From positions 484,001 through 548,000 of the forward strand of contig NZ_CP090003.1 in the NCBI RefSeq assembly GCF_021390195.1: a DNA stretch of 64,000 bases, written 5' to 3'. This stretch comes from Flagellimonas sp. CMM7. GTDB taxonomy: Bacteria > Bacteroidota > Bacteroidia > Flavobacteriales > Flavobacteriaceae. The translations under genes were made by a program, and so were the position numbers. The notes beneath the pieces were generated by a model, which saw nothing but the letters and a program-made list of their open reading frames with translations, ran no database searches and had not been told where the DNA came from. This document shows, piece after piece, positions 30,108-61,893 of this stretch (positions within the stretch are counted from its first letter, which is position 1; each line of letters opens with the position of its first letter).

Positions 30108-30330
30108 TCACAACAAAATCATAATAACAAATCATCTTCTTGAAAATCAGTAACTAAAAACAGTTTTATTCTTAGCTAATTTTTGAAGCCTGCTATTGCC
30201 TTATGCGCATTGATTACTTATGATTAGCCTTATTACTGTAATGTTATATTCTACGGTAGAGGATGGAACCTACCACTTTTGGGCTGTTTCCCATGAATGG
30301 ATAACTTTATCATACAATTTATCCATTCAT

Positions 30331-32067: not shown

Positions 32068-32193
32068 TGAGTAGTACTGTTGAATTGATTGGTGCTGTTT
32101 TTTAAGCTATAACCTTAAGGCAGCTTTTTTTTAGAATAGGCGCAAGTATTTAATTAAATGCGCCTATTTCCAAACTAAAAACTAAACTAATTA

Positions 32194-34711: not shown

Positions 34712-34791
34712 AATTTTAATCATTTAAAAAAGTTAATAAAAGGTTTAGTTATTATATTCAAATCACATTTAATTAATGTTCCTTTTGAGGG

Positions 34792-36453: not shown

Positions 36454-36466
36454 TGCAATTAAGATT

Positions 36467-45452: not shown

Positions 45453-45479
45453 TAAATCAATCTGTTTTTTGCAAAAAAA

Positions 45480-45510
45480 TTGTTTTTGAATTCAAATATA
45501 CATATGTTTG
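45480..45510 (+). promoter_or_regulatory. Bacteroidota promoter of the LacI-controlled operon
   Basis: A TTG at 45480-45482 and TATGTTTG at 45503-45510 match the -33 TTG / -7 TAnnTTTG pattern with 20 bases between. Transcription would start within the first operator at 45514-45539, so repressor binding should block it. On the opposite strand TATATTTG (45493-45500) may serve lacI. Confidence 0.6.
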
Positions 45511-45513
45511 TTT

Positions 45514-45539
45514 TAAAATAGTGAACGTTCACTATTTTA
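45514..45539. promoter_or_regulatory. LacI-type operator O1, perfect 26-bp palindrome
   Basis: The half-site TAAAATAGTGAAC is followed directly by its exact reverse complement. The central AACGTT fits LacI-family operators, which are usually even palindromes with a central CG step. It starts three bases after the -7 element. Confidence 0.85.
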
Positions 45540-45548
45540 TTTTTACAC

Positions 45549-45570
45549 AAATAGTGAACGTTCACTATTT
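45549..45570. promoter_or_regulatory. LacI-type operator O2, perfect 22-bp palindrome
   Basis: Same core as O1 (half-site AAATAGTGAAC). Its centre is 33 bp from that of O1, about three helical turns, so two dimers could bind one face. It ends 12 bp before the first start codon of the operon and so overlaps its leader. Confidence 0.85.
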
Positions 45571-45582
45571 TAATAGCTGATT

Positions 45583-46446
45583 ATGAAAGTAGGAATAGAT
45601 AGTTATTGTTACCATCGTTTTTTTGGTGAAGTCTATCCAGGACAAGATGCTCCGGAAAAAACAATTTCACTTGAGGAATTCCTTGATAAGGCCATCGCTC
45701 TTAATATTGACGGCTTGTCACTGGAATCTTGCTTTATACCACAATTTGATGATGGTTATTTGGCAAATATTAAAAGAATATTGGACAATGCTGGTTTGGA
45801 TCGCGTATATGCTTGGGGGCATCCTGATGGATTGGAAGGAGGTACCAATTTAGAGGCTTATGACGAAATGATAGCACATATCGATTATGCAACCAAAATA
45901 GGTGCCGATGTTATGCGAGTGGTAGGCAGCAGCCATCTTTTTAGGTTTGAAGCTCATGATCAACGGCTAGACAAGCTAACGGAAATGTTCCGAAGTGCCG
46001 TTCAGATAGCAAAAAGAAAAGGAGTTCGCCTTGCTATAGAAAACCATATTGATTTTGATTCTGACGAAGTTTTAAAATTGATAAAAGCTGTTGATTCAGA
46101 ATATTTTGGCGTCAACTTTGATACAGGGAATTTTCTTCGTGTTTTGGATGATCCCATTCAAGGAATGAAAAAATTGGCGCCATATGTTTTTGCAACACAT
46201 ATAAAAGATTTATTGCCCGTAAAAGAAATTGCCGTAAATGAATGGAACTTTTTCTCTTGCGTACCAACCGGATTAGGAATAATAGACAACTCAAAACTCA
46301 TTCGACTCCTTAAAGATGCCGATTACAAAGGTTTTCTAGCAGTTGAGATTGATAACTTACATCCTGACTACTCCAACAAAGAAGAAAAAGTTATTGCCGC
46401 AAGCATAAAAGAGCTTAAAAAACTAGCCACATTGGTTTCTAAATAA
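45583..46446 (+). CDS. Sugar isomerase/epimerase-like TIM-barrel protein
   Basis: 287-aa xylose-isomerase-like TIM barrel, cytoplasmic (no signal). Likely metal-binding segments are LAIENHIDF, GVNFDTGNF, FATHIKDL and FLAVEIDNLHPD. The family includes ketose 3-epimerases, inosose dehydratases and lyases, so the reaction is uncertain. It is the first gene of the LacI-controlled operon. Its stop overlaps the start of the oxidoreductase gene (TAATG), arguing that the two proteins work in consecutive steps. Confidence 0.85.
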   Translation: MKVGIDSYCYHRFFGEVYPGQDAPEKTISLEEFLDKAIALNIDGLSLESCFIPQFDDGYLANIKRILDNAGLDRVYAWGHPDGLEGGTNLEAYDEMIAHIDYATKIGADVMRVVGSSHLFRFEAHDQRLDKLTEMFRSAVQIAKRKGVRLAIENHIDFDSDEVLKLIKAVDSEYFGVNFDTGNFLRVLDDPIQGMKKLAPYVFATHIKDLLPVKEIAVNEWNFFSCVPTGLGIIDNSKLIRLLKDADYKGFLAVEIDNLHPDYSNKEEKVIAASIKELKKLATLVSK

Positions 46447-47609
46447 TGAATAAAAAAAAGCTAAATATTGGCATCATAGGTTATAACTTTATGGGGAAGG
46501 CCCATAGCAACGCATGGAAAAAAGTTTCCAAATTCTTTGACACTTCAGCTGAGCCCGTTTTAAAAGTGGCCTGTGGGCAAAACTTAGAAAATTTAACCAA
46601 TTTTGCTGATAAATGGGGATGGGAAGAGGTAGAGACAGATTGGAAAAAGCTTATCAAGAGGCCAGATATAGAGATTATAGATATTGCACTACCACCACAC
46701 CTACATTATGAAATTGCTGTAGCCGCAGCAAAAGCTGGAAAACATATCTTTTGCGAAAAGCCTATTGCCATGAATTTGGAACAGGCCATGGATATGTACG
46801 AAAAAAGTGAAGCATGTAATGTAGTGCATTATCTGAACCATAACTATAGAAGGGTGCCTGCAATAGCCCTTGCCAAGCAGATGATAAATAATGGCACGAT
46901 AGGCAACATATATCATTGGCGATGTGCTTATCAACAAGATTGGATTACCAGCCCTGATTTTCCGCTAACTTGGCAGTTGCAAGCTCAATATGCCAAGGCC
47001 GGGCCTCACTGGGATCTTAACTCACACTGTGTGGACCTAGCACATTTTCTAGTGGGTGATATTACGGATGTTACATGCATTACCAAAAACTTTATAGCAG
47101 AAAGACCCCTTGCTAAAAAAGGAGGCACACGCAATCTCAAAGCTGAGGTCGGTAGTACTGAAATGGGCAAGGTCACTGTAGAAGATGCCGTATTGATGAT
47201 GGTCAATTTTAAGAACGGTGCCATCGGCTCATTTGAGGCCACACGATTCGCCAATGGTCGCAAGAACAAATTGTCTTTTGAGATTTACGGCAGTAAGGGG
47301 AGCCTAACATTTAATCTAGAGCGGTTAAATGAGTTGCATTACTATTCCCAAGAAGACAAGGATGGCCTAAAGGGGTTCAGAACAATTTCCGTAACCGAAG
47401 ATAGCCACCCTTATGTAAGCCATTGGTGGCCAGCTGGCCATATAATTGGATACGAACACACTTTTGTACATGCGGCTTCCGATTTCATAGAAGCAGTGGC
47501 AAACAATGCCAACATAGAGCCCAATTTCAAAGATGGTGTGGCAATCATTAAGGTGTTAGAAGCAGGATTACGATCATCAATTGAAAAAAGAACGATAGCA
47601 ATAGACTAG
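46446..47609 (+). CDS. Gfo/Idh/MocA-family NAD(P)-dependent sugar oxidoreductase
   Basis: 387 aa. N-terminal Rossmann fold with GIIGYNFMGKAHSNAWKK (about 9-26), the catalytic-lysine motif HIFCEKPIAMNL, and a C-terminal alpha/beta domain with NHNYRRVPA and HWDLNSHCVDLAHFL. No export signal is visible, so cytoplasmic. Such enzymes oxidise or reduce sugars or inositols at a ring carbon, commonly C3 of a glycoside. It is coupled to the TIM-barrel gene. The real substrate cannot be read from sequence. Confidence 0.93.
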   Translation: MNKKKLNIGIIGYNFMGKAHSNAWKKVSKFFDTSAEPVLKVACGQNLENLTNFADKWGWEEVETDWKKLIKRPDIEIIDIALPPHLHYEIAVAAAKAGKHIFCEKPIAMNLEQAMDMYEKSEACNVVHYLNHNYRRVPAIALAKQMINNGTIGNIYHWRCAYQQDWITSPDFPLTWQLQAQYAKAGPHWDLNSHCVDLAHFLVGDITDVTCITKNFIAERPLAKKGGTRNLKAEVGSTEMGKVTVEDAVLMMVNFKNGAIGSFEATRFANGRKNKLSFEIYGSKGSLTFNLERLNELHYYSQEDKDGLKGFRTISVTEDSHPYVSHWWPAGHIIGYEHTFVHAASDFIEAVANNANIEPNFKDGVAIIKVLEAGLRSSIEKRTIAID

Positions 47610-47645
47610 ATATTTTTAAGCAAAGGAATCTAAAGCATAGAAAAA

Positions 47646-48524
47646 ATGGAGAATGATTTAAAAGAACAATTTCTAAAAAACGGGTATGTGATTATCGATG
47701 CACTCTCAGAAGAAGAGATCAATGATTTCAGAATGGTTATAGACAAGTTGTTGAGTACAAAAGCAGTGAGTGATGATGATACCCCCAAAAGTTCGTCTTT
47801 CCAGCATTTAGGGGATGCTTTGGCCGATTTTGGAAAAGAGGCGAGACAATACTATTTTCACCTACTTACCAAACCTGGAACGGAACCAATACACCATGCC
47901 TTTTATAACCCTAAAATCTTAAAAGTCGTTGAGCAAATAATAGGCCCTGACCTAATCGTTAACAATGCCTCCATATTGGCAGCCAATGTGGGAACCTCAT
48001 ACACATTGGGTTGGCACAGGGATATCATTCAAATACCGCAAGATGAAATTGATGATTGGTTATTTTCTGCTGAAAGATTTCACAATAGCGTTCAAATCAA
48101 CTTACCACTTGTGGATGAAAATTCACTCTGGATAGTACCAAAAAGTCATAACAGACCTAATACAGAAGAAGAAAATACAGCTTTTCAAGGGTCTAAACAC
48201 TATGCGCCAGTTGGTGTGGAAATGCCGGGAGGCGTACCTGTTAAGTTAAAAGCCGGACAGGCCGTGCTTTACAACAACAATTTAATACATAGGGGGTACA
48301 CGGAAACCATGAAAATCCCTAGAAGGACATTACATATGGGTTACCACAGTAACGCTTTTCCACCTACATGGCATTTTTATTTGCTGAACAGGGATTTGCT
48401 CACAGAAGATTATCTAAAAACACTGGATCCGATTATGAAAGCTATGATGGAAAAGTATATCGAATGTCGTGATAGATATCCAAAAATGGAAGATACTTGG
48501 AGGGCAAAATATGTTTCGAGCTAA
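47646..48524 (+). CDS. Phytanoyl-CoA dioxygenase (PhyH)-family Fe(II)/2-oxoglutarate oxygenase
   Basis: 292 aa, cytoplasmic. The iron triad is visible: His124-x-Asp126 in LGWHRDIIQ and His215 in NNNLIHRGYTE. Arginines in IPRRTLHMGYH could bind 2-oxoglutarate. It is located between the Gfo/Idh/MocA oxidoreductase and a SusCD pair, an unusual partner for glycan import, suggesting oxidative removal or modification of a substituent such as a methyl ether (inference). The family is broad; the substrate is unknown. Confidence 0.88.
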   Translation: MENDLKEQFLKNGYVIIDALSEEEINDFRMVIDKLLSTKAVSDDDTPKSSSFQHLGDALADFGKEARQYYFHLLTKPGTEPIHHAFYNPKILKVVEQIIGPDLIVNNASILAANVGTSYTLGWHRDIIQIPQDEIDDWLFSAERFHNSVQINLPLVDENSLWIVPKSHNRPNTEEENTAFQGSKHYAPVGVEMPGGVPVKLKAGQAVLYNNNLIHRGYTETMKIPRRTLHMGYHSNAFPPTWHFYLLNRDLLTEDYLKTLDPIMKAMMEKYIECRDRYPKMEDTWRAKYVSS

Positions 48525-48575
48525 ATATTCAATACGATTACAAATTTAATTTAACCGATAACTAACAAAACAATT

Positions 48576-51500
48576 ATGAATCAAAAACGAGAACACAATT
48601 GGTTAAAGTCCAAAAAAAATAAATACGTACTGCGTTTTGGACTTCTCACGATACTGATTTGCCTTGGAACACAATCTGTTCAGGCAAATGCAAATTTTTA
48701 TAATGACAATTTCGAAACAGTACCCCAGTTAACAATCACTGGTACTATTGTTGATAGTAATGGAACTCCACTTCCAGGAGCAGTGGTACTGATTAAAGGT
48801 ACGACCAACGGTGCTCAAGCTGATTTTGATGGTAATTATACCATTGATGCCAATACCGGGGATACCCTAGTTTTTTCCTATATAGGATATTTAAAAAACG
48901 AAGTTGTTGTCGGCAGTGATTCAGTTATTAATATCGCTATGACGGAAGATGCACAGGCACTAGATGAGGTAGTAGTGGTTGCCTATGGCACATCGACCAA
49001 AAAGGATTTGACTGGTGCTGTAGCAGTGGTAGGTGCGGAAGAGTTAAATAGTTTTCCTGCAACAAATGTTGATCAGGCCCTACAGGGTAAAACGGCAGGG
49101 GTTCAAATTGTTTCAAATTCAGGTGCCCCAGGGTCTTCGGTAACGGTAAACATTCGAGGGGTTGGATCTTTTGCCAATACAACACCTTTGTATATTGTAG
49201 ATGGTTACCCTACGCAAGATATCTCTTTTTTAAACCCTAACAGTATAGCATCCATATCGGTTTTAAAAGATGCTTCCGCTGGAGCTATTTACGGTGTTCG
49301 AGCTAGCAACGGAGTTGTAATCATTGAAACAAAAAAAGGCACAAAGGGTAAAGTCAGTGTAGAATTGAACACATTTGTAGGATACCGCTTTCAGCCGAAA
49401 ACCCTTGATGTTTTGGATATTGAAACGTTTGCACCTTTCGCTTCAGAAATTGGTAATTCTACTGACTTCACAAGTGTAGATGCAGTACCATTTCCAGGTT
49501 GGGCAAGTCCAGGACAACTGACCAATATTGATTGGCAAGATTTTGCCTATAATTCTGCCGCAAGGTTTTCTACGAATTTGAGTGTTCGGGGAGGTGGAGA
49601 AAATTCAAGAATTGCATTTACTGCTGGTATTTATGACGAAGACGGTGTTGTGCTGACCTCTGAATATAAAAGATATAATATGGGCTTGAATGTGCAATTT
49701 GATGTTACTGAAAAGTTACGGATAAACATAAATACTAATTATGCGTACTCTTCAAGTTTGGCGCAGTTAAATCAGGGGTATTTCAACATTGCAAGAATGA
49801 TTGATAACATCCCACATTTAGCCGGTGAAGAGGAACTAAATGCCAGAGGGTTTAGCAACGGTACCAACTTACCATTTGATGGAAACGGTAATTTTGGAGG
49901 TTTTCCTGATATTCCTGAAAACACATTTAGAACTAGCGCGAACGTTTTAGCAAGTGCCTTACAACGTGATGGCAATAATGGCAACAACAATTTTTATGGA
50001 AATTTAGATATTTCTTATGATTTTTTTGACGGTTTGACAGCAAGTGCAAAAATGGGAGTGAATACAAATAGTTCATTTTTTACAACTTTTAACCCAACAT
50101 TTTATAGAAGTAATTCTAATAATGATGTAAACGATGTGTCAACCTATGATTTTGGACAAAGAACCAATACAGAGTGGTTGTTTGAAGGTTTACTTAAATA
50201 CAAGAAAACATTTGCTGATAAACATAACATTGATGTCTTGCTAGGGGTCTCTGCACAAAGGGACAATAGAAAATTTCTTAGAACAACAGGTAGTGGGTTT
50301 TTGAACAATGAAATCAGAGATCTTTCACAGGCAAATGAGATTTCCATATCTGAGGGAAATGAGCAGAGAACCACTTTAGCTAGTACGTTTGCCAGATTTA
50401 ATTATAATTTCAATAGCAAGTACTATATAACGGGTACTATAAGACGTGATGGGGTTGGAGATCGATTTGGTCAAAATCAACAGTTTGGTATATTTCCTTC
50501 TTTTGCAGGAGGTTGGAATATAGATGAGGAACCCTTTATGGATGATAGTATATTTGATATATTAAAAATTCGTGGTAGTTGGGGTGAAACCGGCAGTTTT
50601 ATAGGTATAAACCCTTTTAGTTTTGCTGCTATATTTGGGAATGGTTCACCAAGGGATGACGCCGGAACAAATGGTCTTGGTCAGGGATTGTTTGCAAACA
50701 ACTTAGCCAATCCGGATTTAAGGTGGGAAACGCAAAGACAAACTGATATAGGTTTAGAAGCAGAATTGTTGAACAGAAATGTATACTTGACCCTAGATTA
50801 TTATAATAAAGAATCATCGGACTTTTTATTCAATGAGACCATTCCAATTCAAAATGGTTTTACAAGTAGAGCTGTGAACGCAGGTAATGTGGTAAACAAA
50901 GGTTTTGAAATTTTGGTGGGCCATAGAAAGACCAGCGGAGATTTTACTTGGGATATTTCGGCCAATATTACTACAGTGGACAATGAAATTACGGCCTTGA
51001 CATCAACGCAAGATTTTACTGTTTTACCTACGCAATTTGTTCCACAATTCAATACGAGATCCTTCTGGGCAGATTTAACAAGATCTGAAGTAGGTGGAGA
51101 GGTAGGTTCTTATTTTGCTTTCAGATCTGATGGTATTTTTAATGACCAGGCAGAACTGGATGCCCTGAATGCAACGGCCGTAGCAAATGGAAATCCTGCA
51201 TATCAAGACGTGAACACTTCTTTAGGTGATAGAAAGTTTAAAGATATATCTGGTCCTGATGGTACTCCGGACGGGGTTATTAATGAGTTTGACCGCGAAA
51301 TTATTGGAAGTCCTATTCCAGATTTTTATGGTGGTCTAAACATGAACTTTAAATATAAAGGTTTTGATTTAGGAGTGGAGTTCTATGGTTCATATGGTGG
51401 TGATATTCTAAACTTTGTAAGATTGGAATTGGAATCTCTAGGAGGTTTTGGACTTAATGATGGGTTTAGCAATGTAAGTAGAGAATATTACAATAATAGA

Positions 51501-51857
51501 TGGACACCTGAGAACCAGTCAAACACATATGCCAGAGCAATAGTAAATGATGCTCAAATTCAGAATGGTAGGGCTTCAGATTACTTCTTGGAAGATGGTT
51601 CATTTTTAAGGTTGAGAAATGTGCGTTTTGGTTATTCCCTTCCAACCGATTTCTCCAATAGTATTGGTATGGAGAACATAAATATATATGTAAGTGGGCA
51701 AAATCTAATCACATGGACCAATTACTCGGGTTATGATCCAGAAATTGGACAAAACTCTGATATAGATGGCGTATCATCGGTAGGAACCAGAGGAATTGAC
51801 GCAGGTGCTTATCCTATTACCAAATCAATGACGGTAGGTGTTAATATGAAATTTTAA
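48576..51857 (+). CDS. SusC-like TonB-dependent transporter (third pair)
   Basis: 1093-aa SusC-family receptor with N-terminal signal (QSVQANA), CarboxypepD_reg-like domain (about 51-123), LDEVVVVAYG (129-138), plug with VLKDASAGAIYGVRASNGVV, and barrel to the C-terminal KF. It is 51 bp after the PhyH gene, so likely in the LacI-controlled operon. Unlike the other two SusC genes it is on the plus strand and not controlled by HTCS, so it may import a different glycan. Confidence 0.95.
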   Translation: MNQKREHNWLKSKKNKYVLRFGLLTILICLGTQSVQANANFYNDNFETVPQLTITGTIVDSNGTPLPGAVVLIKGTTNGAQADFDGNYTIDANTGDTLVFSYIGYLKNEVVVGSDSVINIAMTEDAQALDEVVVVAYGTSTKKDLTGAVAVVGAEELNSFPATNVDQALQGKTAGVQIVSNSGAPGSSVTVNIRGVGSFANTTPLYIVDGYPTQDISFLNPNSIASISVLKDASAGAIYGVRASNGVVIIETKKGTKGKVSVELNTFVGYRFQPKTLDVLDIETFAPFASEIGNSTDFTSVDAVPFPGWASPGQLTNIDWQDFAYNSAARFSTNLSVRGGGENSRIAFTAGIYDEDGVVLTSEYKRYNMGLNVQFDVTEKLRININTNYAYSSSLAQLNQGYFNIARMIDNIPHLAGEEELNARGFSNGTNLPFDGNGNFGGFPDIPENTFRTSANVLASALQRDGNNGNNNFYGNLDISYDFFDGLTASAKMGVNTNSSFFTTFNPTFYRSNSNNDVNDVSTYDFGQRTNTEWLFEGLLKYKKTFADKHNIDVLLGVSAQRDNRKFLRTTGSGFLNNEIRDLSQANEISISEGNEQRTTLASTFARFNYNFNSKYYITGTIRRDGVGDRFGQNQQFGIFPSFAGGWNIDEEPFMDDSIFDILKIRGSWGETGSFIGINPFSFAAIFGNGSPRDDAGTNGLGQGLFANNLANPDLRWETQRQTDIGLEAELLNRNVYLTLDYYNKESSDFLFNETIPIQNGFTSRAVNAGNVVNKGFEILVGHRKTSGDFTWDISANITTVDNEITALTSTQDFTVLPTQFVPQFNTRSFWADLTRSEVGGEVGSYFAFRSDGIFNDQAELDALNATAVANGNPAYQDVNTSLGDRKFKDISGPDGTPDGVINEFDREIIGSPIPDFYGGLNMNFKYKGFDLGVEFYGSYGGDILNFVRLELESLGGFGLNDGFSNVSREYYNNRWTPENQSNTYARAIVNDAQIQNGRASDYFLEDGSFLRLRNVRFGYSLPTDFSNSIGMENINIYVSGQNLITWTNYSGYDPEIGQNSDIDGVSSVGTRGIDAGAYPITKSMTVGVNMKF

Positions 51858-51867
51858 AAAAAAGATT

Positions 51868-53415
51868 ATGAAAAAAATTAAATTTTATGCAGTTGCATTG
51901 CTTGCAATGTCTTATGGCTGCTCAGACGAATTTGTTGCAGACACCAAAACGGATGGTCTAAGTGATGAAACCGTATTTAGTTCAGAAAGTACGGCTGTCG
52001 CATCGGTAACAGGAATTTATGATGCATTTCAAGGAGAATTTGGAGGGCAAGCGGGCCTACCCAACGAATACAACACAAAGTCAATTTTTACATTGAATAA
52101 GTTTACCCAAGATTTTATAGGTAATGGAAATCAAGATGAACTGACCAGCTTTATCATTAATGCCAATGATGAGGTTATGGGCAAAATGTGGCCCATACAT
52201 TATAATGGTATCGGTAGGGCAAACAGCGTATTGGCCAATCTTCAGCCAGCAATAGATGAAGGAAATATAGGAGAAGAACTGGGCAGTAGATTGATAGGTG
52301 AAAGTTTAGTGTTACGGGCCTTCTTTTATTATTACCTGTCATCAACAATGGGAGCTGTTCCTTTGATAACGAAACCAACTGGACCTTCAGATGATTTCTT
52401 CGCGCCAAGAAATACACAAGACAACATATTCAGACAAATTGTTATTGATATGACGGATGCCGTAAATCGTCTTCCATGGAGTTATGATGAGGAAAGAGGT
52501 AGGGTCAGCAAAGGAACGGCATATGCCATGTTGGGAAATGCGCATATGTGGCTAAGAGAATATGAGGAGGCCGTGGCTGCTTTTGAAGCCTTAGAGGGTA
52601 ATTTCTCTTTAGAAGAGAACTTTTTTGATATCCATGCACTATTCAACAAAAATGGTAAGGAATCCCTTTTCGAATTACAATTTGATACGGAAAGTGATTT
52701 AAGTTGGAACAGAAATGATGAAACCACCTTCTTAACATCCTTTACCATGCCAAATGAAATTGGAGGTGGAGGTTTTGGAGGTTTGCCAACAGAGGCTTTT
52801 TTCAATTCATTTGAAGATGGAGATCTTAGAAGAATAGCTTCCGTAATAGGACCTGGAGAAGAACACCCAGATGAGAATATTGATATAAGCTCGTATGAGC
52901 GAGGCAGTAATTCTCAGCTAGAAACACCCCTTAATACTGCAGGGACAGAAATAGAACCATGGACCAATGGTGGTAGAACAGGTTATTTTGGCATCAAGCA
53001 ATGGCGTGATCCAGCACCAACTGGCTGGGGCGGCCCTAGAATTTTTGGTGGATCTAACCATATTTGGCTACGTTATGGTGAAGTGCTGTTAAGTCTTGCT
53101 GAAGCGGCTCACAAAAGTGGTGATGACACTAAGGCAATGAATGCCATAATGAGAGTAAGAAATAGAGCTTGGGGAGGTAGTGCTCCAGCACCGACAGGAA
53201 GTATGATGGATATCATTTTCGATGAATACAGACACGAGTTGGGTGGTGAGTTTTCTTTATGGCCGGTATTGAGAAGAACAGGTGATGTATCTGGCTATTT
53301 ATCTAGAAAGTTTGGAATAACCACAACAGAAGAGGGTGCTATATTGCCCATACCAAGAAATCAGGTAGATATCAATCCAAGATTATTGGAACCAGCTGTA
53401 GATCTAGGAATTTAA
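51868..53415 (+). CDS. SusD/RagB-like lipoprotein (third pair)
   Basis: 515 aa, lipobox AMSYGC (Cys18). SusD-type helices GESLVLRAFFYYYLSSTMGAV and KGTAYAMLGNAHMWLREYEE, and late MDIIFDEYRHELGGEFSLWP and ILPIPRNQVDINP motifs. It follows SusC by 10 bp and is the last gene before the terminator at 53441, so it ends the LacI-controlled operon. Confidence 0.94.
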   Translation: MKKIKFYAVALLAMSYGCSDEFVADTKTDGLSDETVFSSESTAVASVTGIYDAFQGEFGGQAGLPNEYNTKSIFTLNKFTQDFIGNGNQDELTSFIINANDEVMGKMWPIHYNGIGRANSVLANLQPAIDEGNIGEELGSRLIGESLVLRAFFYYYLSSTMGAVPLITKPTGPSDDFFAPRNTQDNIFRQIVIDMTDAVNRLPWSYDEERGRVSKGTAYAMLGNAHMWLREYEEAVAAFEALEGNFSLEENFFDIHALFNKNGKESLFELQFDTESDLSWNRNDETTFLTSFTMPNEIGGGGFGGLPTEAFFNSFEDGDLRRIASVIGPGEEHPDENIDISSYERGSNSQLETPLNTAGTEIEPWTNGGRTGYFGIKQWRDPAPTGWGGPRIFGGSNHIWLRYGEVLLSLAEAAHKSGDDTKAMNAIMRVRNRAWGGSAPAPTGSMMDIIFDEYRHELGGEFSLWPVLRRTGDVSGYLSRKFGITTTEEGAILPIPRNQVDINPRLLEPAVDLGI

Positions 53416-53440
53416 TTATATTGAGTTAGTTTAGTTGTTT

Positions 53441-53473
53441 AAAGAGTCTTAGTTATTTCTAAGGCTCTTTTTT
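53441..53473 (+). terminator. Intrinsic terminator of the LacI-controlled operon
   Basis: A 12-bp stem (53441-53452 with 53459-53470, one G-U pair) with a six-base loop and T run to 53473 lies 26 bp after the SusD stop. Confidence 0.87.
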
Positions 53474-53526
53474 CCTTAAATTTTAAACAATCCCTGATAT
53501 GTCATACAGTTGTTAAGCTTGGTCAT

Positions 53527-56500
53527 ATGAAGCATATTAATTTAGTATATATAGCTATAAAATTCGCGGGGCTTGCTTTGTGCATACTGATATGTTCGTG
53601 CAAAAAAAAAGAGGTTCCGCAAAAACAATTTACTTTACTTGATACGGAAAGTACTGGAATTTTATTTTCCAATGATATTAAAGAAACGGATAGTTTAAAC
53701 TATTTCAATTATCCCTACCTATATATGGGAGGTGGTGTTTCGGCTGGTGATTTTGACAACGATGGATTGACAGACCTCTTCTTTACCTCTAACATGAAAT
53801 CCAATAAACTATATCACAACCAAGGTGATTTTAAGTTTATTGATATTACCAAAAAAGCAAAAGTAAGCGCTGATAAGCGGTGGTTTACAGGTACGACCGC
53901 GGTTGATATCAATAATGATGGCTTTCTTGATATTTATGCCAGCGTATCTGGAAAAGAAGACAATAGGGAAAACTTGCTGTACATAAACAACGGTGATCTA
54001 ACCTTTAGGGAGCGGGCAAAAGAATTTGGCATCAATGACAACGGGCATACCACTCAAGCTACTTTTTTTGATTACAACAATGACGGTTATTTAGATTTAT
54101 ATCTGGCAAATTATACCCCTACTCCATTCAAAAGTCCATCAGATCTGTATGCGTACAGAAAGAACAATCCAAGACTGGAGGCATCGGATAAATTATATAA
54201 AAACAATGGGGACGACACGTTCTTGGATGTTACAGAGGCATCGGGAATCCTAAATTTTGGATTGTCCTTAAGTGCTACTTCGGGCGATTTTAACAATGAT
54301 GGCTGGCAAGATATCTATATCTCCAACGATTTTGATTCTCCCGATTTTTTTTACATCAACAACGGCGATGGTACCTTTAAAGAAGTTTCACAAGAGGTAT
54401 TGGGCCATACAGCGCAGTATGGTATGGGAGTAGATGTCGCTGACTATAATAATGACCTTCTTTTAGATTTTGGACAGGTGGATATGACACCTGAGGATAA
54501 TAGAAGATCAAAAGAGAATATGGCTAGTATGAATCCCCTATCGTTCAAAAGAATGGTAGATCAAGGGCTGTTCTACCAGTACATGCAAAATAATTTACAG
54601 CTCAACAGAGGGGTCGATGCCAATGGCAACCTTAAATTTAGCGAAGTCTCAAGACTTGCAGGAATTGCCACAACAGACTGGAGCTGGGCCATCCTTTTTT
54701 CAGACTTGGACAATGACGGTTGGAAAGATATCATCATATCGAACGGAACCAGAAGGGACATTAACAATAGGGATTACTTTAAAAAACTAAGCTCAAAATT
54801 AAAATTCAATAAAACCGCCGTACTGACATCCGAAGAAATACAAAATATACCTTCTGAAAAAATCAGTAATTACGTATTTAAGAACAAAAAAGATCTCTCT
54901 TTTGAGAATGTGACCAAAGACTGGGGTTGGGAAGAAAAAACATTTTCCAATGGCATGACCTATGCCGACTTGGACAATGACGGAGATTTAGATGTTGTCA
55001 TCAATAATATAGACCAGCCAGCATCAGTGTACAGAAACAATAATAGTGCGGACAACAATACGATTACCGTAAAACTGAACGGACCAAAGAACAATAGACA
55101 AGGCATAGGGGCCAAAGTATATGTAACTGCAAAAGATTTGAGCCAACTGCAACAACTGACCCTTACCAGAGGGTTTCAGTCCTCAATAGCCCCAAAGATC
55201 CATTTTGGTCTAGGCAAACACACTCTCGTTGATGAATTAAAAGTCGTCTGGCCAGATGGCACTATAACTTGCAGAACCAACCTAGACCCAAACCAACAGA
55301 TCATACTTGATCATAAAGACGCAGTTTCGGTCAAATCGGATTCAATAACAAAAAATTCACGTTTCAAGACGGTGGACAACGCTTTATTTGCAATAGACTA
55401 TACACATACTGAAAATGAATACGATGATTATTTAACAGAGCCTTTATTGCCCTATAAAACCTCTGCCCTAGGGCCTAGCGTAACCGTTGGGGATATTAAC
55501 AATGATGGATTGGATGATTTCTTTATCGGTGGTGCCGCATATCAAATTGGAAAACTGTTTGTTCAAGAAAAAATCGGAAAATTTATCGAAACTAATACCG
55601 ATGTTTTAAGCTACGATAGGCATTATGAAGATATGGATGCCTTATTCTTTGATTTCGATAATGATGGCGACAATGATCTTTATGTGGTAAGTGGGGGAAA
55701 TGAATATGAGACCGATTCGGAGCATTTTCAAGATAGAATCTATATCAATGATGGCGCTGGCAATTTCAAAAAAGGAGTGGGTATACTTCCACAATTAACT
55801 TCTAGTGGCTCTAGACTAGCTGCTGCTGACTATGATAAGGATGGAGATATTGACCTATTTGTAGCAGGTAGGCTAGTTTCTGGTAAATACCCTTGGCCCG
55901 CTTCCAGCTATGTTTTGAACAACGAAAATGGAGTTTTTAAAGACGTTACAAGTACCGTAGCTCCCGATTTTAATAACCTGGGGATGGTTACCGATGCCAT
56001 TTGGACGGATTTTAACAACGACACCCAACCGGATCTGGTAATTGTTGGCGAATGGATGTCCATTGGTTTTTATGCAAATGAAAATGGCAGGTTTAAAAAT
56101 GTAACTGGCAACAGTAGCATAGAAAACACCGCAGGGTGGTGGTCCAGTATAGCGCAAGCAGATTTTGATAATGATGGTGACATGGATTTTGTTGCAGGTA
56201 ATTTAGGTCTAAATTATAAGTACCAAGCAACCCCAGAAGAGCCTTTTGAAGTTTTTGCGGATGATTTTGACCATAATGGGAGAAAAGATATTGTCTTGAG
56301 CTATTATAATTTTGGAAAGCTATTCCCTTTGAGGGGGCGTTCGTGTTCATCCCAACAAATTCCTGCCCTTTCTGAAAAATTTAAAGACTATGGATCCTTT
56401 GCAGGTGCTGATGTAAGTGAAGTTTACGGGAAGGAAGCCCTAGAGGACGCCGAAATACATTACAAAGTCCAAACATTTGCTAGCAGTTACATTGAAAATT

Positions 56501-56853
56501 TAGGAGACGGCCGTTTTCGTATAAAAAATCTGCCTAACAAAGCTCAATTTTCCTCAGTAAATCAAATGCTTATCAAGGATATTGACTATGATGGTTTTAA
56601 GGATATACTTTTAGCAGGAAACCTATACGCTTCAGAAGTGGAGACACCAAGAAACGATTCTGGTCTTGGCCTGTACCTAAAGGGCAATGGAAAAGGCCAG
56701 TTCACCCCTGTCCCAAATACTTCAAGTGGCCTATATATCAACGGCGACGTCAAAGATTTTTCACAAATAACGATTGCCGAAGAGAACTTCCTCATCATAG
56801 CAAAAAACAACGATGAGATTCAACTGGTAAAAATCACTTCGGACATCAACTAA
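53527..56853 (+). CDS. CRTAC1-type lipoprotein with FG-GAP/VCBS repeats and ASPIC/UnbV domain
   Basis: 1108 aa. Lipobox LICSC. Two large sets of FG-GAP/VCBS repeats (GDFDNDGLTDLFF, DYNNDGYLDLYLAN, DLDNDGDLDVVINN, later DFDNDGDNDLYVVSGG, DFDHNGRKDIVLSYY) form beta-propellers with calcium-like DxDxDG loops. Between them, about residues 505-590, lies an ASPIC/UnbV domain (LTLTRGFQSSIAPKIHFGLG, then VVWPDG). Such proteins are common in glycan loci of Bacteroidota and planctomycetes, but their function is not established. It starts a plus-strand group that also holds a Tat TIM-barrel protein, a multihaem cytochrome and GH26. Confidence 0.88.
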   Translation: MKHINLVYIAIKFAGLALCILICSCKKKEVPQKQFTLLDTESTGILFSNDIKETDSLNYFNYPYLYMGGGVSAGDFDNDGLTDLFFTSNMKSNKLYHNQGDFKFIDITKKAKVSADKRWFTGTTAVDINNDGFLDIYASVSGKEDNRENLLYINNGDLTFRERAKEFGINDNGHTTQATFFDYNNDGYLDLYLANYTPTPFKSPSDLYAYRKNNPRLEASDKLYKNNGDDTFLDVTEASGILNFGLSLSATSGDFNNDGWQDIYISNDFDSPDFFYINNGDGTFKEVSQEVLGHTAQYGMGVDVADYNNDLLLDFGQVDMTPEDNRRSKENMASMNPLSFKRMVDQGLFYQYMQNNLQLNRGVDANGNLKFSEVSRLAGIATTDWSWAILFSDLDNDGWKDIIISNGTRRDINNRDYFKKLSSKLKFNKTAVLTSEEIQNIPSEKISNYVFKNKKDLSFENVTKDWGWEEKTFSNGMTYADLDNDGDLDVVINNIDQPASVYRNNNSADNNTITVKLNGPKNNRQGIGAKVYVTAKDLSQLQQLTLTRGFQSSIAPKIHFGLGKHTLVDELKVVWPDGTITCRTNLDPNQQIILDHKDAVSVKSDSITKNSRFKTVDNALFAIDYTHTENEYDDYLTEPLLPYKTSALGPSVTVGDINNDGLDDFFIGGAAYQIGKLFVQEKIGKFIETNTDVLSYDRHYEDMDALFFDFDNDGDNDLYVVSGGNEYETDSEHFQDRIYINDGAGNFKKGVGILPQLTSSGSRLAAADYDKDGDIDLFVAGRLVSGKYPWPASSYVLNNENGVFKDVTSTVAPDFNNLGMVTDAIWTDFNNDTQPDLVIVGEWMSIGFYANENGRFKNVTGNSSIENTAGWWSSIAQADFDNDGDMDFVAGNLGLNYKYQATPEEPFEVFADDFDHNGRKDIVLSYYNFGKLFPLRGRSCSSQQIPALSEKFKDYGSFAGADVSEVYGKEALEDAEIHYKVQTFASSYIENLGDGRFRIKNLPNKAQFSSVNQMLIKDIDYDGFKDILLAGNLYASEVETPRNDSGLGLYLKGNGKGQFTPVPNTSSGLYINGDVKDFSQITIAEENFLIIAKNNDEIQLVKITSDIN

Positions 56854-56887
56854 AAAAGAGCATATGAAAACGGATGGAATTCCTAAC

Positions 56888-57853
56888 ATGGACAGAAGAA
56901 AATTTATGCAAACCACCGCTATTTTATCGGTTCCATTACTATTTGGGTGTAATCTTCCAACGTCTAAAAAACAAAGACTTGCCCTTTCGCAGTGGGCTTT
57001 GCACAGGGCTATTTTTGGCAACAGTAAAGAAGATTATGCCCAATGGGAAAAATGGCTCACAACAGATCCAGACCAAGTTTTAAAAGGCACTTTAGACCCA
57101 TTGGATTTTCCTTCAATTGCAAAAAACACCTATGGTTTTGATGCCGTAGAATATGTAAACACCTTCTTCTATCGTAAAGACGAGGCTTATTTTAAAGAAT
57201 TGAAAAATAGAAGTGATGATGTAGGGGTTACCAACCTTCTGATCATGGTAGATCAAGAGGGTATGTTGGGAGATCCAGACCCTAAAAAAAGAAAAGAATC
57301 GGTTCAAAGACACAAAAGATGGCTTTCTAACGCTGCTATCCTTGGGTGCCATTCCATTCGTGTAAACGCACATAGTTCTGGAACAAAAGAAGAACAACAA
57401 AGTTATGTGATAGAAAGCTTGACCAAATTGTGCAATTTGGCCAAACCCTTGAATTTGGATATCCTCATAGAGAACCATGGCGGAATGTCGAGTGAACCAA
57501 ATTGGCTTTTAGACACCATAAAGAAAACCAATAAGCCAAATCTTGGTACCATGGTAGATTTTGATAATTTTAAATATTCAGAAACCAAAATCTGGAATGG
57601 CGAATTAACCTATGACAGGTATGAAGGTGTAGCTCTATTGCTCCCTTATGCAAAATCCGTAAGTGCAAAATCGTATGCTTTTGATGATTCCGGTCTAGAA
57701 AAGACCATTGATTTTAAAAGAATGGTACAATTGATCAAAGACTCAGGGTTCAAAAATTATATTAGTGTGGAATATGAGGGAGAAGGTGAAGATAGTCTGA
57801 GTGAAAAAGATGGCATACTAGCTACAAAAAAGTTATTGGAACAGTATATTTAA
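56888..57853 (+). CDS. Tat-exported sugar isomerase/epimerase-like TIM-barrel protein
   Basis: About 321 aa from the ATG at 56888, which places a twin-arginine motif at the start (MDRRKFMQTTAILSVPLLFG) with a following Cys (LLFGC), so it is a Tat-exported, possibly lipidated protein; an upstream ATG at 56864 is the alternative. The mature domain is an AP endonuclease 2-type TIM barrel with IRVNAHSSG, DILIENHGGMSS, GTMVDFDNF and ISVEYEGEG as probable metal-site strands. Tat export implies folding with a cofactor before export. It may be a periplasmic lyase or hydratase acting on an oxidised glycoside (inference). Confidence 0.85.
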   Translation: MDRRKFMQTTAILSVPLLFGCNLPTSKKQRLALSQWALHRAIFGNSKEDYAQWEKWLTTDPDQVLKGTLDPLDFPSIAKNTYGFDAVEYVNTFFYRKDEAYFKELKNRSDDVGVTNLLIMVDQEGMLGDPDPKKRKESVQRHKRWLSNAAILGCHSIRVNAHSSGTKEEQQSYVIESLTKLCNLAKPLNLDILIENHGGMSSEPNWLLDTIKKTNKPNLGTMVDFDNFKYSETKIWNGELTYDRYEGVALLLPYAKSVSAKSYAFDDSGLEKTIDFKRMVQLIKDSGFKNYISVEYEGEGEDSLSEKDGILATKKLLEQYI

Positions 57854-57872
57854 TACCATAGGCTTCTAAAAT

Positions 57873-59114
57873 GTGAAACCAAAAAAAAACATAGTTTATG
57901 CACTAACAATGCTATTGACCGCTGTAGTTGTTTTTTGGCTGGTCACTTTTTTCAATGCTCCCATTGAAAGTGATTATCAACCGATAATACCGATAGCAGA
58001 ACATTCAAATGGGCAAAGTTTTGCAGGATCGACAGCTTGTGCCCAATGCCATAGTGATATCTATTCGTCCCACATCAAAACGGCACACTTTAACTCATCC
58101 GCAGTAGCGAACGAACTCAACATTAAAGGTAGTTTTAAGGAAAATGGAAATGTACTTCATTTCAATGAAAACACCGGATTTATGATGACCGTAAAAGAAG
58201 GTGGTTTTTATCAAGAGGCTCTCCATGTTACGGACAGCACATACCAACTTTCAAATAAAATTGATATGGCCATAGGGTCAGGCACTAGGGGGCAAACCTA
58301 TCTAAGCTGGAAAAATAATGACCTGTTCCAATTACAAGTATCCTACTTTGCCCCCACCGATAGTTGGGTCAACAGTCCCGGATATCCTAAAGTTCAGCTT
58401 GCGGACAACAGACCGATCGGCAGTAGATGCCTGGAATGCCATGTTACCTATGCCGAACGTATTCCAGCATTTAATAAAAAAAATGTCTACAATAAATCGA
58501 ACATGGTTTTTGGTATTGACTGTGAACGTTGCCATGGACCTGGGGCAGAACACGTGAACATGCAGCTAGAAAACCCAAAAGAAACAAAACCTTTGGGCTT
58601 AACCTCCTACAAAGATTTAACACAACAACAACGATTGGATGCGTGTGCCTTATGCCATTCGGGGGTACGAAAACAAATGGTCAAAAATCCATTTTCATTT
58701 GTCGTGGGAGATACCTTAATAAATTACTCGCTTCCCGATTATGATATTGCGGATTCAAAAGAACTGGATGTTCACGGCAATCAATATGGCCTGCTACTGG
58801 CAAGTACGTGTTTTAAGGGAAGCGAAAATATGGATTGTGCCACATGCCATGATCCACATAAAAAAGAACGGGGCAACCACGCCCTGTTCAATTCAAAATG
58901 TATGAACTGCCACAATGCGAAAAATAACGTGGATTGTGCCATGAATTTTAATGCCAGCGAAATTTCTGCAAGCAATTGTATCGCCTGCCATATGCCATTG
59001 ACCCCCTCAAAATCTATGTCAGTTGGTATTGGTGTGGATACAGCAAACACGCTAGTAGAAGTAAGGACCCATTTAATTGCTGTGTATGCAGATAGATTGC
59101 TTTTTGAGAATTGA
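57873..59114 (+). CDS. Seven-haem c-type cytochrome, membrane-anchored
   Basis: 413 aa, GTG start (57873); the ATG two bases earlier is out of frame and hits a stop at once. One N-terminal membrane segment (NIVYALTMLLTAVVVFWLV) then seven CxxCH haem motifs at residues 56-60, 186-190, 217-221, 258-262, 322-326, 343-347 and 369-373, spread like cytochrome c554/nitrite-reductase-type proteins (GIDCERCHGPGAEHV). It probably moves electrons in the periplasm. Being 19 bp after the Tat TIM-barrel gene, it may accept electrons from a glycoside-oxidising partner. No obvious quinol oxidoreductase partner is in the window. Confidence 0.88.
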   Translation: MKPKKNIVYALTMLLTAVVVFWLVTFFNAPIESDYQPIIPIAEHSNGQSFAGSTACAQCHSDIYSSHIKTAHFNSSAVANELNIKGSFKENGNVLHFNENTGFMMTVKEGGFYQEALHVTDSTYQLSNKIDMAIGSGTRGQTYLSWKNNDLFQLQVSYFAPTDSWVNSPGYPKVQLADNRPIGSRCLECHVTYAERIPAFNKKNVYNKSNMVFGIDCERCHGPGAEHVNMQLENPKETKPLGLTSYKDLTQQQRLDACALCHSGVRKQMVKNPFSFVVGDTLINYSLPDYDIADSKELDVHGNQYGLLLASTCFKGSENMDCATCHDPHKKERGNHALFNSKCMNCHNAKNNVDCAMNFNASEISASNCIACHMPLTPSKSMSVGIGVDTANTLVEVRTHLIAVYADRLLFEN

Positions 59115-59153
59115 AGACAAAATTATGTTCAGCGCCATAGCTGTATATAGATT

Positions 59154-60575
59154 ATGAGAAAATTAAAACTTTTGGTAATGGCCATATTGTTATTTTCCTG
59201 TTCTAAGGATTCCATAAATGAAGAGGAGTTTTTTAACAGTAATAAATCGCTTTTATCCTTTTCCGTCCAAGAGATGCCCGATCATGTGTTTTCAAGTGTG
59301 GGGCAGAACCAATTGGAAACCTTTTTGGAACATCCCACGGATTTGATAGCACTGACCGCCGTTTTTTCAGTATCACAAGGAGCTACAGTCTATGTAGATA
59401 GTTTGGCGCAACAATCAGGTGTTACTAAAAATGATTTTACAGATAAAGTAACCTATACCATTAAGGCAGAAGACGGGAGCAAGTCTCATTTTACGGTGCA
59501 AATTAATTTGAAGATCAATAGCGCTCAAATACCTGTAGATCCAGATGCATCCGCAGAAATACAAAATTTATTGAAAAATCTTAACACTTTAACAGCGAGC
59601 AACCAATTTGCTTTTGGGCAAGAGTTTCCATTGTCATTTCAATTGAACAGCTTGAACTTTGATTTGAACACCTCAGATTGTAAAGATGTTTCTGGAGACC
59701 ATCCAGGAGTTTTTGGCATAGATCCACATTATATGTTGTACAAAAGTGCGGCTGAGCGCCAATTACATATTGATGAGGCAAGGTCGGCTTATGAAAATGG
59801 TTCAATTGTTACTTTTGATTTTCATCAAAGAAGTAGAGTGGATGGTCAGATTTATTACAATCAAATTACCACAGACACAGACAAGAGCTTAATATATGAT
59901 ATTGTCAATGACCAAAACGCAGCGAGATTATGGTATTTTAGCGAAATTGATGAGATTTTAGGTATTATCAACAATGATTTAGGCTTTCCCATTATCTTTA
60001 GGTTGTTCCATGAAATGAACGGCAATTGGTTTTGGTGGGGTACACAAACTGCTAACCACACTCCAACCCTATATATTGATTTTTATCGGTTGACTGTTGA
60101 TTATATCAAAGATAGGACCAATAACGTACTTTTCGCTTGGTCCCCTAATTGGGAAGCGGACGAATCATACTATCCGGGTGATAATTATGTTGATGTCGTA
60201 GGTATAGATTATTATGAAGCGACAAAAACGAATCTTTCCCAAAGTTTAAAAGACCTCACGATTTTTTCAACACAACACAATAAAGTAACCGCACTTACGG
60301 AGACAGGTGATCAAGGTTATATTCGTTCAAACGCAGATTTTTGGACGGAAAATATATTATCGGTTATAGAATATAGTGGAAATGAGATTAAAATTGCATG
60401 GGTCCTAGGTTGGTTCAATGCTCCGTGGGACAGCAGTCAAGACAACTTGTTCATTCCTAATACAAGTAGCCCTCAAAATGCCAAGGACGATTTTATGAAT
60501 TTTAAAAATAATGAAAAGGTGCTCTTTCAACAAGATGTAAAGGCTTTGAAAATTTATCAATCGGGTGGAGATTAG
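59154..60575 (+). CDS. GH26 glycosidase lipoprotein with N-terminal Ig-like module
   Basis: 473 aa. Lipobox LLFSC (Cys16). An N-terminal Ig/cadherin-like module (about 30-120, KVTYTIKAEDGSKSHFTVQI) precedes the GH26 barrel, which shows FAFGQEFPLSF in place of the usual FGHQ, acid/base Glu287 in FRLFHEMNGNWFWWG, and nucleophile Glu383 in ALTETGDQG. It likely cleaves beta-mannan, although GH26 also includes beta-1,3-xylanases and lichenases. It is the last gene of the cassette before the integrase relic. Confidence 0.9.
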   Translation: MRKLKLLVMAILLFSCSKDSINEEEFFNSNKSLLSFSVQEMPDHVFSSVGQNQLETFLEHPTDLIALTAVFSVSQGATVYVDSLAQQSGVTKNDFTDKVTYTIKAEDGSKSHFTVQINLKINSAQIPVDPDASAEIQNLLKNLNTLTASNQFAFGQEFPLSFQLNSLNFDLNTSDCKDVSGDHPGVFGIDPHYMLYKSAAERQLHIDEARSAYENGSIVTFDFHQRSRVDGQIYYNQITTDTDKSLIYDIVNDQNAARLWYFSEIDEILGIINNDLGFPIIFRLFHEMNGNWFWWGTQTANHTPTLYIDFYRLTVDYIKDRTNNVLFAWSPNWEADESYYPGDNYVDVVGIDYYEATKTNLSQSLKDLTIFSTQHNKVTALTETGDQGYIRSNADFWTENILSVIEYSGNEIKIAWVLGWFNAPWDSSQDNLFIPNTSSPQNAKDDFMNFKNNEKVLFQQDVKALKIYQSGGD

Positions 60576-60641: not shown

Positions 60642-61893
60642 TCATCCAGTTACCAAAAGATTTACATTATCCAATACCTCATTATCAAAATCCCTTAAAT
60701 ATTTTTCGGTGACTTTAACAGAGGAATGGCCGAAAGCCTCACTTATCAATTCTGTAGATATCCCCATATATTTAGCAATCGTAGCCCACGAATGCCGAAT
60801 GGAATATGTTGTGAATGTTCCCTCTATTCCGGCATCTTTAGCAATTATTCTAAGTCTTTCATTCATTCTACGTCGCTGGCTTTTATACTTTTGAAAATGC
60901 TTTGTTGATCCATCGTAATTGGTAGGGAAGAGGTAATCATTGCTCCTTTTGCTTAATAAGTAATAGTTTAATATTTTTTGAAGCCCATCAACGATTTTAA
61001 TGCTGAATTTATTTCCGGTTTTACTACGACCGTAATTCAACCTCCCATTTTCAATATCACTAACTCTGATTTTCATTAGGTCGATAAAATTCATTCCTCT
61101 ACTATAGAACATTACTAATGCATAGTTTTTGGCATGCCATAATGGTGACTCAAAAGGATATTCCAAGATTTTTATGTTTCCAATTTTTTCTTTACTGATT
61201 GCTCTTTTTTTGGTTCTTATGGTGGGAGGCATCCTATATTTACTAAAGGAGTTCGTTATTGGGGCAAATCTGTCTTCGGCGATAGCGGCATTGTACAATG
61301 ACCTAATTGTGTTTAATTAAATACACGGTATTCGGTGAATTGCCCTTTCCAATCTGATAGGCCTCAAAGCTTCTTAAAAAAGTCAAATCAATATCGTAAA
61401 GCTTCAAGTCCTTACCGTTGTTGTAATCCATAATTCTGTTCACACAATTACTTAGCGATTCGGCCGTTTCAGGTTTGTTTGCCAGTCTTTTGCGAGCGAT
61501 TATAACCGCTGCCCATTCTTTTAATGTAATCTGACTTTCTGCTCTACATTTTAATTCAGATTTTGGATTGTAGTTCCATTTATCTTCAATAATTTCGGTC
61601 AGCTGGCTTACATTGATTTTGTCTATATTGTTACCTCACTCTCTCAGCACTTTTTTTGCGATATAGAGTTTATCCTCTAAATCTGAATTGACATCCTCAA
61701 AGTCCATTCTTTTATTATTGGATTGGGATTTTTTAAGGCAATAATTCTTACTATCCCAACCAATTGTCGAAGTATAATGGCCTACTTTTAATAAGCGTGT
61801 CTTTCGATTATAAACTCGCAAAGAAATTGGAAAGGTTCCGTCGATTCTTTTAGAACTTTCCCTAGTATCCAATACAAGTTTTATGCGGGCCAT
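60642..61893 (-). pseudogene. Tyrosine recombinase/integrase, broken by a stop and a frameshift
   Basis: Read as one gene of about 415 codons, the normal length of Bacteroidota integrases. The arm-binding domain (61636-61893, MARIKLVLDTRESSKRIDGT) ends at an in-frame TGA (61636-61638) after KKVLRE. The same frame continues with GNNIDKINVSQLTEIIEDKW and, further on, IIARKRLANKPETAE. A frameshift near 61305 separates NSPNTVYL from LNTIRSLYNAAIAEDRFAPI. The catalytic part (60642-61298) retains RGMNFIDLMKIRVSD, YSIRHSWAT, FGHSSVKV and the nucleophile Tyr in TEKYLRDF. Two lesions make it inactive. Its 5' end points to the truncated kinase at 62048. Confidence 0.9.

Follow-up and report, generated by a model that had tools for sequence, protein, structure and literature searches.

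A conserved LacI–TIM barrel–dehydrogenase–dioxygenase cassette lies upstream of a SusCD–CRTAC1–heptahaem cytochrome unit in Flagellimonas sp. CMM7

The window, the whole 64,000-nucleotide stretch of Flagellimonas sp. CMM7 DNA that was analysed, carries ten genes of interest between positions 44394 and 60575. Every reading frame of this region is present, and a profile search placed all named domains above their Pfam cut-offs, confirming the gene assignments of an earlier note. A LacI-family repressor gene with LacI and Peripla_BP_4 domains (44394–45452) lies on the reverse strand. On the forward strand follow a cytosolic, xylose-isomerase-like TIM barrel of family PF01261 (TIM1; 45583–46446), a Gfo/Idh/MocA dehydrogenase that resembles levoglucosan dehydrogenase (Gfo; 46446–47609), a PhyH-family Fe(II)/2-oxoglutarate dioxygenase (47646–48524), a SusC-type TonB-dependent receptor identified by Pfam and NCBIfam (48576–51857), and a SusD-type lipoprotein (51868–53415). 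Farther downstream are a CRTAC1 protein with FG-GAP and ASPIC/UnbV domains and a lipoprotein-like N-terminus (53527–56853), a second PF01261 TIM barrel that is predicted to be exported (TatTIM; 56864–57853), a c-type cytochrome with exactly seven CxxCH motifs, cytochrome c3/c554 domains, and an N-terminal hydrophobic segment (57873–59114), and a GH26 lipoprotein whose nearest solved relatives are Man26C-type β-mannanases (59154–60575).

TIM1 and Gfo overlap by 1 base, and gaps of 36, 51, and 10 bases separate Gfo from PhyH, PhyH from SusC, and SusC from SusD; downstream, the gaps are 10 (CRTAC1–TatTIM), 19 (TatTIM–cytochrome), and 39 bases (cytochrome–GH26). The longer, 111-base gap between SusD and CRTAC1 contains a forward-strand hairpin with a 12-bp stem and a U-tract (53441–53470; −15 kcal/mol, z −3.63), a putative terminator or attenuator. 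Given this hairpin, the layout fits a predicted transcription unit running from TIM1 to SusD, with CRTAC1, TatTIM, the cytochrome, and GH26 forming a second unit or being reached by attenuated read-through.

As judged from sequence comparison across genomes, the locus consists of two evolutionary modules of different history: module A (LacI, TIM1, Gfo, and PhyH) and, downstream of it, module B (SusC, SusD, the hairpin, CRTAC1, and the heptahaem cytochrome), with TatTIM inside module B and GH26 after it. The four genes of module A occur together in all three Flavobacteriaceae genomes that have PhyH, out of 299 searched, namely the present genome and those designated G260 and G212, and the set is found again in Spirosoma oryzicola, giving four module A loci. 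Module B recurs without module A in other Flavobacteriaceae. Relative to two such loci, L067 and L068, identities are 54–55% for SusC, 51–53% for SusD, and 64–66% for CRTAC1, and hairpins stand at the matching position in both, their sequences having been judged by eye. Among 24 loci with the cytochrome, 15 have CRTAC1 and 15 have SusC, as compared with 0 and 1, respectively, of 20 control loci. Of the nine cytochrome loci in whose available flanks CRTAC1 was not seen, two adjoin the gene for DNA polymerase III alpha. At L003, a cytochrome locus without CRTAC1, there is a relative of TatTIM with 34% identity. The heptahaem cytochrome is not a general partner of module A, as neither G260 nor G212, the other cassette-bearing genomes of the family, yielded one. 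The co-occurrence of six families that the earlier note proposed to compare thus stands for TIM1, Gfo, and PhyH, which recur jointly as a conserved cassette, and fails for CRTAC1 and the cytochrome, which recur apart from it in a separate SusCD–CRTAC1–cytochrome unit. A single fixed cassette of all nine genes was dropped for the same reasons.

Regulation of module A by its repressor is well supported. Upstream of TIM1 lie two putative operators, a perfect 20-bp palindrome, AATAGTGAACGTTCACTATT (45517–45536), and an identical copy (45550–45569). A scan of the 4.42-Mb genome found no sites beyond these two, and 100 shuffles of the window yielded 0 matches to the palindrome at ≤3 mismatches. Close copies are present at all four module A loci, where LacI relatives adjoin the cassette (62% identity in G260, 52% in G212, and 44% in Spirosoma), so that the site is found at the target promoter and is conserved along with the regulator. 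These predicted operators bear out the proposal that the LacI protein controls the TIM1 promoter.

In module A, TIM1 and PhyH carry invariant metal-site residues. The 3-keto-glycoside β-eliminases CGE and OGE, as described (PMC10628242), carry an acidic residue and a His two positions later on strand 5, an Asp on strand 6, a His on strand 7, and a Glu on strand 8. With strands assigned from an AlphaFold2 model (pLDDT 93), TIM1 displays this set of metal ligands and catalytic-type His as E153-x-H155, D180, H206, and E255, each conserved in 43 of 43 aligned proteins, and so has the eliminase residue set. Such a set extends beyond eliminases and is found in isomerases and dehydratases as well. 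In PhyH, which scores 49 bits against a Pfam cut-off of 22, the HxD...H metal triad and the 2-oxoglutarate-binding Arg (H124-x-D126, H215, and R226) are present in all 30 aligned proteins.

Gfo is nearest to levoglucosan dehydrogenase, a known 3-dehydrogenase. It scores 380.0 bits with the LgdA model NF052479, below the cut-off of 650, and its counterparts in Spirosoma (377.7) and G212 (377.6) behave alike, whereas an Arthrobacter agilis protein used as positive control reaches 746.8 bits. The four module A Gfo proteins form one clade in a tree (support 1.0). Among the other Gfo loci, 20 of the 27 listed were examined. Levoglucosan was dropped as a substrate because the score is so far below the LgdA cut-off. 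TIM1 shares 22% identity over 156 residues and 23% over 209 residues with the two TIM barrels adjoining levoglucosan dehydrogenase (LGDH) in A. agilis, which were taken from gene order as LgdB1 and LgdB2/B3. The levoglucosan pathway, lgdA–lgdB1–lgdB2–lgdC (PMC7676230, PMC10066097), resembles the present locus in that a Gfo of the same subfamily adjoins a PF01261 TIM barrel within one sugar-use locus, but differs in these scores and identities, in an LgdC-like second Gfo that is absent here, and in the PhyH dioxygenase and SusCD added here.

TatTIM begins with RRKFM followed by LFGC, which we take to be Tat lipoprotein signals, and is therefore probably a Tat lipoprotein. Its E203, H205, and D232 are conserved in 49 of 49 aligned proteins, but the metal-binding His on strand β-7 is replaced by S267, a Ser in 48 of the 49 with a gap in one. 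TatTIM thus lacks the strand-7 ligand of CGE and OGE, and its reading as a canonical Mn eliminase is not supported. It has matches in 37 of 299 genomes, exceeding 50% identity only in its own genome and in G260 (74%); G212 and Spirosoma have a different TIM barrel, 25% identical to TatTIM over about 150 residues.

The genomic surroundings hint at mannan. The window also contains a mannan locus with GH26, GH130, and an epimerase (5319–11334), and in G260 module A adjoins a mannan locus, with the TatTIM relative and a GH26 relative (75% identical) beside it, so the closeness to mannan genes holds in two genomes. Mannan utilisation loci are hydrolytic, phosphorolytic, and epimerising in their enzymes, whereas the cassette here is a redox one. 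The set in this genome probably serves a mannan-related glycan. By module A locus, GH26 occurs in two and GH5 and GH140 in Spirosoma; no glycosidase was seen on the G212 contig carrying module A.

The reading we favor, with about even confidence, is that two modules have been joined, module A as a LacI-repressed cytosolic redox cassette and module B as a SusCD–CRTAC1–cytochrome importer, for use of a mannan-related glycan. The repressor would bind the paired palindromes and be released by a polysaccharide-derived sugar. SusC and SusD would import the substrate, together with the CRTAC1 protein and the periplasmic heptahaem cytochrome, through which electrons may flow. Gfo would most likely oxidize a ring hydroxyl, probably at C3, of the sugar or glycoside taken up, using NAD+. 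TIM1 could then act on the keto product by β-elimination, hydration, or isomerisation, and PhyH might hydroxylate in a 2-oxoglutarate-dependent step that perhaps strips off a substituent. Counting against this reading, a fold search with TIM1 did not separate eliminases from isomerases and dehydratases, the unit shows no evident inner-membrane transporter or glycal hydratase, no single glycosidase family occurs at all four loci with module A, and CRTAC1 was not seen in the available flanks, some of them short, of 9 of the 24 cytochrome loci.

Non-hydrolytic glycoside cleavage, close to what the earlier note had envisaged, is a serious but rather unlikely alternative. Gfo would form a 3-keto-glycoside, TIM1 would eliminate the aglycone, and the glycal would be hydrated and reduced, with TatTIM acting likewise outside the cell and the cytochrome as electron acceptor. 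The kinship of Gfo to levoglucosan dehydrogenase and the residue pattern of TIM1 speak for it, as do the C-glycoside deglycosidase (CGD) entries that make up 8 of the 10 solved relatives, other than 4ovx, of the TatTIM profile, the ThuA genes and the PQQ/cytochrome c enzyme that adjoin module A in G212, and ThuA in Spirosoma. Yet Gfo does not belong to the levoglucosan pathway and TIM1 probably does not either, the latter matching the barrels beside true LGDH only at 22–23% and over partial length; the likeness of TIM1 to CGE and OGE is one of residue pattern, with no orthology; and TatTIM lacks the β-7 His whose replacement abolished activity in AtOGE (PMC10628242). Moreover, a second Gfo is absent among the ten genes, and PhyH is left unexplained; a dioxygenase has no place in the described 3-keto-glycoside routes examined. 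In Bacteroides, BT2157–BT2160 form a non-hydrolytic glycan pathway that likewise pairs Gfo proteins with a TIM barrel at a glycan locus of this phylum, but Gfo scores 30.7 bits with the BT_2158 model (cut-off 750) and 31.2 bits with the BT_2159 model (cut-off 650).

That the modules are unrelated neighbors, SusCD–CRTAC1–cytochrome–GH26 being a separate uptake system downstream of an independent module A by chance, is likewise rather unlikely. It would suit the hairpin between SusD and CRTAC1, the lack of a further operator in the genome, the missing cytochrome in G260 and G212, and the relationship of SusC and SusD to module B loci elsewhere. However, PhyH is tied to SusC and SusD through gaps of 36, 51, and 10 bases, and TatTIM and GH26, whose G260 relatives stand beside module A, here lie within or right after module B.

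Catabolism of an O-methylated or otherwise substituted sugar, which we consider improbable, would have PhyH strip the substituent and Gfo and TIM1 process the freed sugar or inositol. The invariant Fe/2-oxoglutarate residues and the strict adjacency of PhyH to Gfo and TIM1 agree with this, and rhizopine catabolism (mocA/mocC/mocDEF) offers an analogy, set beside the locus by description, in that it too combines Gfo, a TIM barrel, and an oxygenase; its oxygenase, however, is of another type and its phylum another, a formaldehyde-handling gene is absent among the ten genes, and the nearest solved PhyH relative, EvdO1, is a weak match. An apiose-type branched-sugar route is very improbable: the oxidative apiose pathway uses a sugar dehydrogenase and 3-oxoisoapionate decarboxylase, roles Gfo and TIM1 could play given GH140, an apiosidase-like family, in the Spirosoma operon and a decarboxylase label, albeit automatic, on 7 of 25 JGI-named TIM1 homologues among 120 matches listed, but two loci carry mannan enzymes instead of apiosidases, and the route was dropped as main reading because the present genome has no GH140 (PF13204) match.

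A literature search found no description of the catabolic step performed by the LacI–operator–TIM1–Gfo–PhyH set. It is conceivable, and decidedly doubtful, that the locus represents a new Bacteroidota route in which an NAD-dependent ring dehydrogenase, a metal-dependent TIM lyase, and an Fe/2-oxoglutarate dioxygenase under one repressor jointly break down a substituted hexose or glycoside of plant or algal polysaccharide origin, while an exported redox chain, the heptahaem cytochrome here and the PQQ/cytochrome c enzyme in G212, oxidizes the glycan before uptake. The retention of repressor, operator, and three enzymes from Flavobacteriaceae to Spirosoma points to a specific catabolic step, and the SusCD–CRTAC1–heptahaem unit, a second uncharacterised system, suggests that redox reactions take place where glycans are taken up. 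Identifying the substrate of the cassette would reveal how such bacteria degrade an unusual sugar.

All ten genes at 44394-60575, part of a complete genome of 4.42 Mb, carry the families that the earlier note had assigned to them, as judged from reading frames and domain matches. From the cytosolic TIM barrel, TIM1, to GH26 (59154..60575), nine genes follow one another on the + strand with successive gaps of -1, 36, 51, 10, 111, 10, 19 and 39 bases. The 111-base gap, which separates SusD from CRTAC1, contains a 12-bp hairpin with a U-tract; 1 in 200 shuffles folded equally well, and hairpins read by eye from the sequence occupy the corresponding position in two loci elsewhere (L067 and L068). 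We therefore read the nine genes as two probable transcription units, or one that would be strongly attenuated. Directly 3' of GH26, at 60642-61298, lies a 218-residue frame that resembles the C-terminal region of a tyrosine recombinase, with RHxxA and HxxxxxTxxY-like motifs recognized by eye; it is perhaps a trace of island transfer.

The proposed cassette is real and conserved, in part as the earlier note supposed, but its genes comprise two modules of separate recurrence rather than one fixed set. The first consists of LacI, TIM1, the Gfo oxidoreductase and the dioxygenase PhyH, which, when co-occurrence in other genomes was checked as the note had proposed, proved to be conserved together. 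PhyH occurs in three of 299 family genomes, namely this one, G260 (80%) and G212 (72%), all with the order LacI, TIM1, Gfo, PhyH, and in one of 72,556 plasmid records, a Spirosoma plasmid whose locus also has TIM1 (67%), Gfo (63%) and LacI (44%). A protein collection yielded 310 PhyH homologues at E 1e-10, with identity of at least 70% in all 120 among the matches listed. When the best 120 of each list were compared, own contig excluded, 22 of the 55 TIM1 contigs longer than 10 kb equaled a PhyH contig in length by eye, among the matches listed; on one soil contig the two homologues bear locus numbers 41230 and 41250, with one gene between them.

The 130-base LacI/TIM1 intergenic region contains two identical perfect palindromes, AATAGTGAACGTTCACTATT, which are the only such sites in the whole genome at ≤3 mismatches; 100 shuffles of the window gave no match. 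Upstream of TIM1, G260 has two imperfect copies and G212 one perfect copy. G212 has a further copy with 2 mismatches on the same contig, some 40 bases upstream of a SusC-SusD-sulfatase-TIM run, and another elsewhere with 3 mismatches, while in Spirosoma oryzicola, the fourth locus, two close copies precede a GH5-SusC-SusD-TIM1-Gfo-PhyH run. The palindromes are the putative binding sites of the LacI protein.

Comparison systems for this module include Bacteroides BT2157-2160 and the rhizopine and apiose pathways. The levoglucosan pathway, as outlined in PMC7676230 and PMC10066097, is another. Levoglucosan dehydrogenase is the model closest to Gfo, at 380 bits against a cut-off of 650, and 4h3v and 6a3f are the closest solved structures. 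In a tree, the Gfos of the four loci of this module form one clade (support 1.0) apart from the levoglucosan dehydrogenase of Arthrobacter agilis, which scores 746.8 bits on that model. A Priestia filamentosa plasmid carries a LacI-Gfo-ThuA-Gfo-MFS run (L114:5959-12158), whose first Gfo is 47% identical to that of the window and scores 437 bits on the same model. Many Flavobacteriaceae carry a distinct Gfo from the levoglucosan-dehydrogenase-like subfamily (42-44%; L089-L103), as part of a repeated gene run that also encodes proteins of about 349, 370, 339, 323 and 1056 residues.

PhyH should be an active Fe/2OG dioxygenase, judging from H124, D126, H215 and R226, kept in 30 of 30 aligned proteins. 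The note had proposed comparing both TIM barrels with known 3-keto-glycoside lyases. In TIM1, E153-x-H155, D180, H206 and E255 are invariant across the 43 aligned proteins, an arrangement like that described for the eliminase CGE in PMC10628242; in OGE, His replaces the first Glu, and replacement of the beta-7 His abolishes activity, according to the same paper. In a fold search, Art22, epimerases, IolE and AtHYD rank near one another. Isomerases and dehydratases of the superfamily share the arrangement, so the TIM1 residues would allow elimination without proving it. For the exported barrel, TatTIM (56864..57853, + strand), the beta-7 His position is Ser in 48 of 49 aligned proteins and a gap in the other, which makes a canonical Mn eliminase unlikely; C-glycoside deglycosidases account for eight of the ten solved relatives matched by its profile besides 4ovx.

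The second module comprises SusC, SusD, CRTAC1 and the heptahaem cytochrome (57873-59114), whose nearest solved relative is 6i5b (E 3e-10), which we take to be the surface cytochrome OcwA. The cytochrome has a match at E 1e-20 in 21 of 299 genomes, although in one of them the match is weak (29%) and to a longer protein; neither G260 nor G212 is among the 21. We compared 24 cytochrome loci, 20 from 19 genomes plus four named contigs, a set that excludes the window's copy and two matches at 28-29%. Fifteen of them have CRTAC1, nine with it directly adjacent on the same strand, and 15 have SusC, the misses being upper bounds because some flanks are short; in 20 control Gfo neighbourhoods the counts were zero and one. 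Two genomes, G019 and G248, have SusC (54-55%), SusD (51-53%), CRTAC1 (64-66%) and cytochrome (50-51%) ordered as in the window, and in G019 two GH3 genes come next. In contrast, the SusCD pair adjoining the first module in G260 shares just 33 and 26% identity with that of the window, and the Spirosoma SusC 31%; by these identities the window's pair belongs by descent to the cytochrome module. At L069 and L077, loci from two genomes of which one belongs to the same genus as the window, the cytochrome adjoins a DNA polymerase III alpha gene, with neither CRTAC1 nor SusC nearby.

TatTIM lies within the cytochrome module in the window, and this position is the best hint of cooperation between the two modules in this genome. 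The G260 locus has 74-75% relatives of TatTIM and GH26, as well as a divergent CRTAC1 (44%). There, the genes after LacI are AraC, GH26, a sodium symporter, GH130 and an epimerase, a run corresponding to the mannan locus at 5319-11334. That mannan-type locus (5319-12309 overall) comprises an epimerase, GH130, a GPH symporter, GH26, an AraC regulator and a further PF01261 TIM barrel; its AraC, GH26, GH130 and epimerase have the relatives beside the G260 LacI (45-67%), its symporter and TIM barrel do not. Mannanases are also the nearest relatives of the GH26 at 59154..60575. The region is a multi-glycan island, since 20306-36477 additionally contains genes for a GntP permease, a mannonate dehydratase and two sulfatases, along with Leloir genes for galactose, a GH5 and a SusCD pair.

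In G212, three further genes begin about 2 bases after PhyH (L064:909-5679); they encode a PQQ/cytochrome c enzyme, a ThuA protein and a TIM barrel sharing 55% identity with one from the Spirosoma operon. Upstream of the cassette there are genes for a second ThuA protein and for a cytochrome c-domain protein. Haem- or PQQ-domain redox proteins thus stand at two of the four loci, which keeps the idea of an oxidative route alive, but their families differ and the partners are not fixed. The openly licensed literature searched yielded no description of either arrangement; what is new here is a cassette that includes a dioxygenase and has a repressor of its own, together with a SusCD-CRTAC1-heptahaem unit.
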